From positions 3,987,741 to 4,051,740 of the forward strand of contig NZ_CP110848.1 in NCBI RefSeq assembly GCF_026240635.1: a stretch of DNA of 64,000 bases. The letters run 5' to 3'. The stretch's first letter is position 1. Each line of letters starts with the position of its first letter. Below are positions 2,229 to 54,677 of this stretch, one piece after another. Under the pieces are notes generated by a model. The model was not told the origin of the DNA, searched no databases, and saw only the letters and a program-made list of their open reading frames with translations. Source of the DNA: Trichothermofontia sichuanensis B231 (GTDB lineage Bacteria; Cyanobacteriota; Cyanobacteriia; B231). Made by a program: the position numbers and the translations under genes.

Positions 2229-2334
2229 TATGGTAAATTCAAATAAGAAAGATACAGTTTTTCACTCCCCTTTCCCGCTCTAGGAGAGGGGTGGGGGTGA
2301 GGGGGCTGTTTCAACCTAAATTGCAATGACTATA
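2229..2334. mobile_element. family-1 MITE-like element, copy 1
   Basis: Begins TATGGTAAATTCAAATAAG and ends AATTGCAATGACTATA. Read inward, the two ends are imperfect inverted repeats (TATRGT-A-T-CAA). The centre holds the GC-rich hairpin CCCGCTCTAGGAGAGGGG and a run of GGGGGTGAGGGGG. Related copies are at 17217, 27171, 33221, 41360, 50798 and 54365. No coding capacity. Confidence 0.75.
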
Positions 2335-5090: not shown

Positions 5091-5312
5091 TACAGCCTTT
5101 CCCTCAATCATAAAGTACAGTTTTACCAAGGTAGAATGGGTGCAGCCCGCCGGTGTGGCCTTCACCCTCAATCCCTCTCCTGCTCTGGGAGAGGGACTTG
5201 AAAATCCGGCTCCCCTTCGCCCCACTTGGAAGAAGGGGTTGGGGGATGAGGGCTGCCACTAGGATCAAGATTCAAACCTTAATTTTGTACTGAGTAAACT
5301 AGGTAAAAGCTA
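5091..5312. mobile_element. family-2 MITE-like element, copy 1
   Basis: Flanked by TA on both sides. The left end is CAGCCTTTCCCTCAATCATA; the right end read inward is GCTTTTACCTAGTTTACTCA, giving imperfect terminal inverted repeats around TTTACCT. The interior carries two GC-rich hairpin cores. The region 4895-5544 holds no gene: only this element, two tandem duplications and the upstream region of the DUF362 gene. Confidence 0.75.
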
Positions 5313-5363
5313 TATCAGCTTGCAATAGGTTTTATTCATCCGTATGCATCCAAAAGACTCATG

Positions 5364-17216: not shown

Positions 17217-17319
17217 TATAGTTATTTGAGATTAGAAAGAGATGTCTAAGCCCCTCTCCCGCTCTGGGAGAGGGGTTGGGGGTGAGGGGGCTGTTTCAGC
17301 CTAAATGGCAATGACTATA
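17217..17319. mobile_element. family-1 MITE-like element, copy 2
   Basis: Starts TATAGTTATTTGAGATTAGA and ends GGCAATGACTATA, with the hairpin CCCCTCTCCCGCTCTGGGAG inside. Lies in the 385-bp gap between the DNA methyltransferase and the RfaE2-like gene, which has no gene. Confidence 0.8.
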
Positions 17320-17407
17320 TGATTGCGGTAAAGGCTGTAAGTTGTTGGGTAATCCCCCAACCAGCTTAGTATGACGACTGGACGTTGAACCCATTTTCTT
17401 CGCCTCT

Positions 17408-26122: not shown

Positions 26123-26333
26123 AGGTGTTATCCGTACACAATTAAGGTTTGGATCTGGATCCTAGTGGTAGCCCTCATCCCCCAACCCCTTCTCCCCACT
26201 TGGGAGAAGGGCAGATGGACTTTCAAGTCCTTCTCCCAGAGCGGGAGAGGGATTTAGGGTGAGGGCCACACCCATGGGCGGCACCCATTCTACCTTTGTA
26301 AAACTGTACTTTTATGATTGAGGTAAAGGTGTA
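26123..26333. mobile_element. family-2 MITE-like element, copy 2
   Basis: Starts at the RRM stop codon. Interior reads CACAATTAAGGTTTGGATCT, then two GC-rich cores, then GTAAAACTGTACTTTTATGA and ends TTGAGGTAAAGGTG-TA. The left terminus is degraded. This copy shows the uninterrupted sequence AACTGTACTTT that is split by an insertion in the copy at 54223. Confidence 0.75.
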
Positions 26334-26369
26334 ATCAAGGGGAGTCAGTATCGTTACCCTATTGTTGCC

Positions 26370-27170: not shown

Positions 27171-27273
27171 TATAGTTATTTCAGATTAGAAAGAGATGTC
27201 TAAGCCCCTCTCCTCCTGGGGGAGAGGGGTTGGGGGTGAGGGGGCTGTTTCAGCCTAAATTGCAATGACTATA
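27171..27273. mobile_element. family-1 MITE-like element, copy 3
   Basis: Ends are TATAGTTATTTCAGATTAGA and, read inward from the other side, TATAGTCATTGCAATTTAGG: 15 of 20 positions agree. Interior is nearly identical to the copy at 17217. It occupies most of the gap between the hydroxylase gene and crr7. Confidence 0.85.
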
Positions 27274-27466
27274 AATTCGGTCAAGGCTGTAAGTCCTTGC
27301 TGGGTGGTTGGGCGGTTGGGCGGTTTGGAGCACCTCTGGGAGGGTTTTGGTGTATCTGGTCATGGCGCGGCGATCGCTGCGTCTTGGTCAACGAGCGGCA
27401 TCCAAGGCCATTTGTGGGTCTATGGAGGGTACACTAGGGCTTACGTACCCAATTGCCATTGCCCTC

Positions 27467-29098: not shown

Positions 29099-29303
29099 TT
29101 AGCCCTCACCCCCAGCCCCTCTCCCAGGGCGGGCGAGGGGAGTGAAAAACTGTATCGTTCTTATTTGGATTGACCATAAGTCGTTGGCCCTCACCCCCAG
29201 CCCTCTCCCAGGGTGGGCGAGGGGAGCCAGAGCAGTCCCCCTTCGCCTACATTACCCTCACCCCCAGCTCCTCCTTCAGGGCGGGCGAGGGGAGTTGGGG
29301 AGT
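29099..29303. repeat. three successive GC-rich repeat cores (family-1 type)
   Basis: CCCTCACCCCCAGC plus CCTCTCCCAGGGCGGGCGAG occurs three times at spacings of about 85 and 75 bp. The first copy is followed by AACTGTATCGTTCTTATTTG-GATTGACCATA, the end of a family-1 element. Small frames through this array are repeat artefacts. 29042-29458 contains no gene. Confidence 0.7.
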
Positions 29304-33220: not shown

Positions 33221-33327
33221 TATGGTCAATCCAAATAAGAACGATACAGTCCCTCGCTCCCCTCTCCCAGAACGGAAGAGGGGCTGGGGGTGAGGGTGTT
33301 GTTTCAGCCTAAATTGCAATGACTATA
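33221..33327. mobile_element. family-1 MITE-like element, copy 4
   Basis: Starts TATGGTCAATCCAAATAAGA and ends AATTGCAATGACTATA, i.e. the alternative left end also seen at 2229 and 54470. Lies between the decayed gene and DUF928; the rest of 33125-33469 holds no gene. Confidence 0.8.
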
Positions 33328-35508: not shown

Positions 35509-35658
35509 TACAGCCTTTACCTAATTTACTCAGTACACCGTTAAGGTTTGGATCTGGAGCCGACCGGCAGCCCTCATCCCCTTCACCCCTTCGCCCACAA
35601 GGGGTGAAGGGGAGCCGGATTTTCAAGTCCCTCGCCTGCCTTGGGAGGCCGAGGGGGA
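35509..35658. mobile_element. family-2 MITE-like element, truncated copy 3
   Basis: Starts TACAGCCTTTACCTAATTTA, continues through ACCGTTAAGGTTTGGATCTG and two cores, and stops at the end of the amylase gene without the right terminus. Part may have been lost or replaced. Confidence 0.7.
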
Positions 35659-41359: not shown

Positions 41360-41470
41360 TATAGTCATTGCAATTGAAGCTAAAACAGCACCCTCACCCC
41401 CAGCCCCTCACCCCAACCCCTCGCCCACTCTGGGCGAGTTGGCGAGTCAGGGTTTGGGGTTTGAAGTCCC
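41360..41470. mobile_element. family-1 element, one end only (copy 5)
   Basis: One terminus TATAGTCATTGCAATTGAAG and the adjacent CACCCTCACCCCCAGCCCCT are clear; the other end is replaced by GGGCGAG-rich sequence. It runs up to the stop codon of the GT9 gene. Confidence 0.6.
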
Positions 41471-50578: not shown

Positions 50579-50757
50579 TACGGCCTTTACCTCAATCATA
50601 AAGTACAGTTTACAGGGGTAGGCTGGGAGCAGCCCGCGGGTACGGCCCTCACCCTAAATCCCTCTCCCAGAGCGGGTGAGGTGCTTATCGAGCCAGGTTT
50701 TGCGGTTCAAGTCGCTTCGCCCCTGGTGGGCGAAGGGATTTAGGGATCAGGGGAAGT
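50579..50757. mobile_element. family-2 MITE-like element, truncated copy 4
   Basis: Starts TACGGCCTTTACCTCAATCA, then AAGTACAGTTTACAGGGGTA and two cores. The right terminal repeat is not recognisable. A family-1 copy follows 40 bp later. Confidence 0.7.
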
Positions 50758-50797
50758 GAGGGTACTAACCTGAGCAGGCACAGCTTATTGGGAGGTT

Positions 50798-50893
50798 GTA
50801 GTTATTTCAGATTAGAAAGATCTAAGCCCCTCTCCCACAGGGGGAGAGGGGTTGGGGGTGAGGGGGCTGTTTCAGTCTCAATTACAATGTAGC
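50798..50893. mobile_element. family-1 MITE-like element, copy 6 (decayed ends)
   Basis: Starts TGTAGTTATTTCAGATTAGA, interior CCCCTCTCCCACAGGGGGAG, ends CAATTACAATGTAG. Both outermost hexamers carry changes relative to TATAGT. Confidence 0.75.
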
Positions 50894-54151: not shown

Positions 54152-54194
54152 GGGGGAAATTTTTAGATTTTAGTTAGATTTGCCTCTCTTGTTT

Positions 54195-54223
54195 ATGGTG
54201 GGAGCGCTACGCGCTCCCACCAT
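54195..54223. repeat. 13-bp perfect inverted repeat
   Basis: ATGGTGGGAGCGC and GCGCTCCCACCAT around the loop TAC. Related to the longer hairpin at 2820; touches the left end of a family-2 element. Confidence 0.85.
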
Positions 54224-54495
54224 GCAGCCTTTACCTAATTGACTCAGTACACAGTTAAGGTTTGGATCGGGATCCTACTGGCAACCCTCATCCCCCAACC
54301 CCTTCTCCCACAAGGGGCGAGGACCGCACCCGTGGGCGGCATCCAGCCTACCCAGGTAAAACTGTATAGTCATTGCAACTTAGACTGAAACAGCACCCTC
54401 ACCCCCAGCCCCTATCCTAGAGCGGGAGAGGGGAGTGAAAACTGTATCGTTCTGATTTGGATTCACCATACTTTATGATTGAGGTAAAGGCTGTA
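54223..54495. mobile_element. family-2 MITE-like element, copy 5, containing a nested family-1 copy
   Basis: Left end TGCAGCCTTTACCTAATTGA, right end GAGGTAAAGGCTG-TA, so terminal inverted repeats CAGCCTTTACCT are exact here. The interior sequence AACTGTA/CTTTATGATTGA is split by the family-1 element at 54365-54470. 54152-54677 otherwise contains no gene. Confidence 0.85.
54365..54470. mobile_element. family-1 MITE-like element, copy 7, inserted in family 2 at a TA
   Basis: Core 54367-54468 (102 bp) begins TAGTCATTGCAACTTAGA and ends GATTTGGATTCACCA, flanked by TA on both sides (54365-54366, 54469-54470). The uninterrupted relatives at 5091 and 26123 have a single TA at this place, which directly shows a TA target-site duplication. 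Confidence 0.88.
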
Positions 54496-54677
54496 AACCT
54501 AACATTGCAAATTTTGTGTTTGTAGTTGCTTATACGGTTTACAGCCAAATATCGGAAGCGCCTTAGATGTTAGAGTTGGGTTGTTGCTCTGGGTGAGGCA
54601 GATGGCTCCCGGTTCTCTGGCTGATAGCTGCTACAATTTGTAACGAAATGTCAATTCAGGCTGGGAAGTAATCCGGG

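Follow-up and report, generated by a model that had tools for sequence, protein, structure and literature searches.

Nested MITE insertions at TA in a cyanobacterial genome and their probable ISY100-like source, now decayed or absent

Results

A family-1 element within a family-2 element

The window analysed here is a stretch of 64,000 nucleotides (G000:C1:3987741-4051740) from a 4.44-Mb single-contig genome. At 54223-54495 it holds a MITE of one family (family 2, the host) that is split by a MITE of another (family 1, the guest), with the following features:

54223..54495, plus strand: family-2 MITE (host), internally shortened and split by the guest; ends TGCAGCCTTTACCTAATT / TACAGCCTTTACCTCAATC, 18/26 positions matching the IS630-A ends of the same genome
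54365..54366, no strand: TA target-site duplication, left copy
54367..54468, plus strand: family-1 MITE (guest), 102 bp, without a gene
54367..54392, plus strand: family-1 left terminal repeat (putative transposase-binding end) TAGTCATTGCAACTTAGACTGAAACA; 21/26 equal to the ISY100-group consensus TATAGTCATTTCAAATAAGAATGAGACA after TA
54396..54437, plus strand: C/G-rich hairpin core CCCTCACCCCCAGCCCCTATCCTAGAGCGGGAGAGGGGAGTG of the guest; related cores in family 2, and widely found without these ends
54443..54468, minus strand: family-1 right terminal repeat TGGTGAATCCAAATCAGAACGATACA (minus-strand reading); 19/26 to the ISY100-group consensus in this copy
54469..54470, no strand: TA target-site duplication, right copy
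54489..54546, no strand: family-3 palindromic repeat GGCTGTAAACC...GGTTTACAGCC, adjoining the host right end; empty equivalent of the family-1 site at L015

Direct reading confirmed the arrangement described in the initial annotation, a complete 102-bp family-1 element inside the family-2 copy with TA on both sides: the left flank ...GGTAAAACTGTA is followed by the element (TAGTCATTGCAACTTAG...TTTGGATTCACCA) and then by TACTTTATGATTGAGGTAAAGGCTGTA. Rejoined at 54366, minus the 102 bp and one TA, the flanks read GGTAAAACTGTACTTTATGATTGAGGTAAAGGCTGTA. The conserved ends of family 1 are TA followed by TAGTCATTGCAATTTAG and TA followed by TGGTCAATCCAAATAAG; two substitutions set the right end at 54468 apart from this form. 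The host copy is, in addition, shorter internally than intact copies, at 169 bp (273 minus 104) vs 224 bp. Palindromes GTTTATGGTGGGAGCGC...GCGCTCCCACCAT at 54191-54223 and 2823-2855 of the window represent another repeat family, one copy of which adjoins the family-2 copy at 54223.

Further copies of both families, and of a variant (family 1b), are found elsewhere in the window:

2231..2332, minus strand: family-1 copy, full length
33223..33325, minus strand: family-1 copy, full length
29103..29176, plus strand: family-1 copy without the left end
41362..41408, plus strand: family-1 fragment, left end alone
17217..17319, minus strand: family-1b copy, with the family-1 left end and right end TATAGTTATTTGAGATTAGAAAGAGATG
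27171..27273, minus strand: family-1b copy, right end TATAGTTATTTCAGATTAGAAAGAGATG
50797..50889, minus strand: family-1b copy, degraded
5091..5314, minus strand: family-2 copy, 224 bp, empty site
26123..26334, plus strand: family-2 copy, empty site (one extra T nearby)
50579..50668, minus strand: family-2 partial copy, empty site
35509..35636, plus strand: family-2 partial copy, left part alone

The empty site, AACTGTACTTTATGATTGAGG, is intact in the family-2 copies at 5091 and 50579 (both on the minus strand), the second of these being additional to the two copies, at 5091 and 26123, that had been cited as uninterrupted. That reading stands for 5091; at 26123 there is likewise no insertion, but the site is AACTGTACTTTATGATTGAGG plus one extra T. 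For family 1b (17217, 27171 and 50797), the right end TATAGTTATTTCAGATTAGAAAGAGATG is also close to the ISY100-group ends considered below. A stretch resembling the family-2 right end follows both of the copies at 17217 and 27171 (17314-17340, with TGATTGCGGTAAAGGCTGTAA at 17314, and 27266-27292), and no family-2 sequence was seen on their other side. An Rfam search of the window returned tRNA alone, and folding the family-1 element as RNA gave z = -1.4, no strong sign of selected RNA.

Family-1 copies, TA flanks and empty sites across the genome

At ≤3 mismatches, the genome has 399 matches to the 26-nt family-1 left end, vs 0 for a reversed-pattern control. We read copies together with their flanks, in line with the check proposed in the initial annotation, and TA was found on both sides in 83 of the 92 distinct full-length copies read. 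The copy-finding profile had been trained on TA-flanked copies, but copies without TA could enter, and did. In the remaining copies TA is missing from one flank (from both flanks in a single copy), the pattern that point mutation would leave. In 464 kb sampled without bias (the window and 20 stretches of 20 kb each), 22/25 copies had TA/TA, where the frequency of TA per position is 0.04. This sample contains 26 full copies; as it covers 10% of the genome, ~250 would be expected genome-wide.

Family 1 is 102-103 bp long, lacks coding capacity, is present in many copies and has imperfect terminal inverted repeats (TATAGTCATTGCAATTTAG vs TATGGTCAATCCAAATAAG), as is typical of MITEs; its constant TA duplication with paralogous empty sites is characteristic both of MITEs and of IS630/Tc1-mariner targets. 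Copies are 82-98% identical to the consensus (median 93.5%). A pattern search of this genome for other interiors behind a family-1 left end found variant copies and one truncated end, and nothing else. The exact 29-nt left end had 0 matches in genome_contigs, where this or near-identical genomes are possibly absent. At L006 (G000:C1:2292479), the left end is partly duplicated outside the element (GGTCATTGCCATTTA joined to TAGTCATTGCCATTTAGG). The 83 TA/TA sites show an A/T-rich target preference, ANTTAANT, that is palindromic (A-N-T-TA-A-N-T), and TTAA occurs at 19 of them (vs 7% of TAs, p = 8e-6).

To find empty sites, the flanks of each copy were rejoined and matched against the genome DNA. 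This yielded an uninterrupted paralogous empty site for 16 family-1 copies, ~8 of them clear and some weak. Insertions into family 2 use more than one TA and occur in either orientation (54366 in the window, L113, L101, L132 and L110), and at L015 family 1 has inserted in family 3, with 54494-54552 of the window as the empty counterpart (96.6% identity across the junction). The nested insertion with its TA duplication is real, and it is not a one-off. Empty sites occur at different TAs, in either orientation and in more than one host family, which answers the refuting condition set in the initial annotation: family 2 did not have the nested arrangement ancestrally. The filled and empty sites had earlier been said to prove that family 1 moves as a unit and targets and duplicates TA. 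That wording is slightly strong, and the claim itself is borne out as far as sequence comparison can indicate, by the 83/92 TA/TA flanks and several independent filled/empty pairs.

These data also bear on spread without transposition, in which family 1 would be ancestral in family 2 or would have spread by recombination or gene conversion between hairpin repeats. Recombination is conceivable given the related hairpin core common to families 1 and 2, yet the empty-site pairs already contradict this explanation: family-1 copies keep TA/TA flanks amid otherwise different surroundings, the nested ones occupy different TAs and are precisely joined to hosts of more than one family, and an ancestral structure would require repeated precise loss of the element and one TA. 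We consider it scarcely credible.

The ends of family 1 match those of ISY100-group elements

A search of other cyanobacteria for TATAGTCATT-type end pairs identified a complete IS630 element of 957 bp in G349 (L183:372-1328, ends TATAGTCAATTCAAATAAGATTGAGACAG / TATAGTTATTTCAAATAAGAATGAGACAC). Its transposase is encoded in two overlapping frames, orfA (PF01710, HTH_Tnp_IS630, E=1.2e-48) and orfB (PF13358, DDE_3, E=4.1e-33), and the named elements most closely related to it are plasmid-borne IS630 elements of cyanobacteria. An element on pSYSA of Synechocystis PCC 6803, which we take to be ISY100, has the same end type, with ends 950 bp apart and ~76% identity in orfB. ISY100-like elements are carried on plasmids of Synechocystis and of other cyanobacteria.

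From 18 ends of nine ISY100-like elements we built the group consensus TATAGTCATTTCAAATAAGAATGAGACA, which the consensus ends of family 1 match at 20/26 (left) and 21/26 (right) non-TA positions. When the family-1 ends were shuffled, 0/100,000 shuffles reached their score against this consensus, and the best scorers among 36,651 TA-anchored 28-mers of the sample were family-1 or family-1b ends or the own end of the remnant described below. Family 1 shares its ends with an autonomous partner group, as MITEs do, and the partner is intact in other genomes alone. The Tc1/mariner-IS630 source originally proposed is supported by this end match and can probably be narrowed to the ISY100 group.

A 2-bp TA duplication by itself is not specific to IS630, since it is also made outside that family, e.g. 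by the IS427 group of IS5, and another transposase family of this kind could in principle move family 1. We regard this as highly improbable: the ends match ISY100-group ends over ~26 bp, nothing unrelated in the sample matches, and ISY100-like remnants are present in the genome.

Some further observations concern elements of this end type. TATAGT-type ends have 379 matches in G306 (2.8 Mb) and 111 in G149 (3.5 Mb), both cyanobacterial genomes very rich in repeats of that end type. The ISY100-like transposase genes of L183 and of L220 (pSYSA) are split at an A run (RKKKN / KKKELRYRERN) into overlapping frames, which hints at programmed slippage or a recurrent frameshift. The transposase at L165 (G062) was considered as a partner of family 1 and rejected, as its element, an IS630, has TACAGTCTTTT-type ends and a 118-bp family-1-like MITE merely adjoins its right end.

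IS630-A and the family-2 host

PF13358 (DDE_3) marks about seven places in the genome, mostly IS630-A and a diverged relative. IS630-A is ~1.03 kb long; its five copies, of which one is truncated, are ~98% identical (they include L031, L033, L034 and L035 of G000). The two copies read (L031 and L033) have the transposase split at an identical position, with a 161-aa orfA ending ...DESGINLALTR. With its near-identical copies and shared split, IS630-A is either dead or makes use of readthrough or a frameshift.

IS630-A was our first assumption for the element that moves family 1 in trans, as it is the abundant DDE_3 element of the genome and, being an IS630, is expected to use TA. This is very unlikely. 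The IS630-A ends (TACAGCCTTTCCC... and TACAGCATTTCC...) agree at just 9-10/26 positions with the ISY100-group consensus that family-1 ends follow, whereas they agree at 17-20/26 positions with the ends of family 2 (copies in register); they are family-2-like, not family-1-like. Family 2 itself has TA at both outer edges in 7/10 paired copies and appears to be a non-autonomous element with IS630-A-type ends. As the ends of family 1 are of ISY100 type and those of family 2 of IS630-A type, the nested site joins two MITE families of two IS630 lineages.

Decayed ISY100-like elements in the same genome

The 4.44-Mb contig yielded no intact ISY100-like transposase. Two remnants were identified. First, a decayed ISY100-like element lies at G000:C1:1822910-1823817 (L222:1410-2317), with ends TATAGCTAATTCAATTAGCAATGAGACG / TATAGTTATTGCAGATAAGAATGAGACAC, and a class-wide protein search matched G000:C1:1823279-1823596 within it. 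Its orfA is 76% identical to that of L183, its orfB has stops and a gap at the second catalytic Asp, and it keeps a family-1-like end, the right end being TATAGTTATTGCAGATAAGAATGAGACAC. Second, a remnant at about G000:C1:880010-880253 has a family-1 copy adjoining it. An IS630-family gene with ends matching those of family 1, for which a search had been suggested, thus exists intact in another cyanobacterium (L183), but in this genome only as broken copies. With nothing intact on the contig, the source in this strain is one that we infer; the end match and the ISY100-like remnants support the earlier expectation of a source acting in trans.

An intact ISY100-like transposase might still reside on a plasmid or in a subpopulation outside the assembly, in which case family 1 would still be mobile. 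The best family-1 copies are 98-99% identical to the consensus, and the plasmid location of ISY100-like elements in Synechocystis and other cyanobacteria would suit such a source. Nothing intact was found on the one contig, however, and the median family-1 identity of 93.5% indicates that most movement is old, which argues against present mobility. We consider this variant of the ISY100-group reading unlikely.

The hairpin core of family 1

Between its ends, family 1 has a C/G-rich hairpin core that does not derive from an ISY100-like element or remnant. A family-1 query matches 210/390 genomes of the class Cyanophyceae, mostly via ~40 bp of this core. In nearly all of ~29 loci read, the core (CCCTCACCCCCAGCCCCTCTCCC-N5-GGGAGAGGGGAG) has no ISY100-type or IS630-A-type ends nearby, and related hairpin cores occur in family 2. 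Core repeats (L063-L091) are sometimes clustered, L070 holding as many as 6 within 3 kb, and L068 and L069 have a common flank with different core copy number. A literature search by core sequence gave no match.

The core may tentatively be viewed as a repeat in its own right, spread across cyanobacteria and captured independently by MITEs of two IS630 lineages, which would make it a shared passenger in at least three levels of nesting; we consider this rather less likely than not. The core shared by families 1 and 2 could instead stem from convergence, from recombination between the families or from one ancient capture.

Discussion

Family 1 is very probably a MITE that an ISY100-like element, by now dead or absent, cross-mobilised. 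Some observations count against an ISY100 source: the contig has yielded nothing intact of this group, several positions distinguish the two family-1 ends from one another and from the remnant ends, and the interior of the MITE does not come from the remnant. For ISY100 itself, nearly all insertions are at a TA flanked by A/T-rich sequence (PMC6400869), the transposase is the only protein needed for movement of mini-ISY100, and mini-ISY100 with 30 bp per end moves as well as the whole element (PMC2170065). For the locus at 54223, the history would begin with insertion of family 2, TA-flanked and with IS630-A-type ends. An ISY100-like transposase acting in trans would then have bound the ~26-bp ends of a family-1 element and excised it, and the excised copy would have entered the TA at 54366, in the right end of the older family-2 MITE, where repair of a 2-bp stagger would have duplicated the TA. 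The ISY100-like source would later have decayed here, or may sit on DNA outside the assembly. The enzymology, the order of decay and any present mobility are parts of this history that we infer.

Orphan (type II) MITEs of cyanobacteria have been reported without a known source. One high-copy orphan family can now be tied to the ISY100 group, decayed remnants of which lie in this genome as well, and MITE families from two IS630 lineages prove to be layered on each other. The ISY100 transposase has been purified and is active in vitro, so the assignment to the ISY100 group is directly testable.

By every defining feature tested, family 1 is on sequence grounds an IS630-type MITE, and it closely parallels RUP of Streptococcus pneumoniae. 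RUP (107 bp) is of nearly the same size, reaches high copy, has IS630-Spn1-like ends and is proposed to be moved in trans (PMC3049150); it resides in another host, the likeness is by description with no sequence relation claimed, and the presumed partner IS of RUP is common in its host, whereas the partner group of family 1 is represented here by remnants alone. With ISY100 (ISTcSa; Synechocystis sp. PCC 6803, IS630/Tc1-mariner), family 1 shares the end type, the TA target and its duplication, and the A/T-rich flanks (PMC6400869), and short ends suffice for ISY100 to move (PMC2170065). ISY100 is autonomous and ~947 bp long, whereas family 1, at 102-103 bp, is gene-less and its hairpin core is unrelated.

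Among cyanobacterial MITEs, the type II MITEs of Anabaena sp. 90 have no matching IS in their genome (PMC3542288), which resembles the situation of family 1 as regards intact elements, and the Nezha MITE goes with ISNpu3-like elements (PMC3049150). All three are high-copy and gene-less with terminal inverted repeats, as compared by description and not by sequence. For family 1, unlike the type II MITEs, decayed ISY100-like copies account for its being an orphan. In the literature searched, which left out most subscription papers, no ISY100-type MITE was described. Further counterparts are 95-bp multi-copy TATAGTCATTTCAA-ended repeats in G265, G270 and G349, which have the end type of family 1 with other cores and far fewer copies, and G349 also carries a complete ISY100-like IS.
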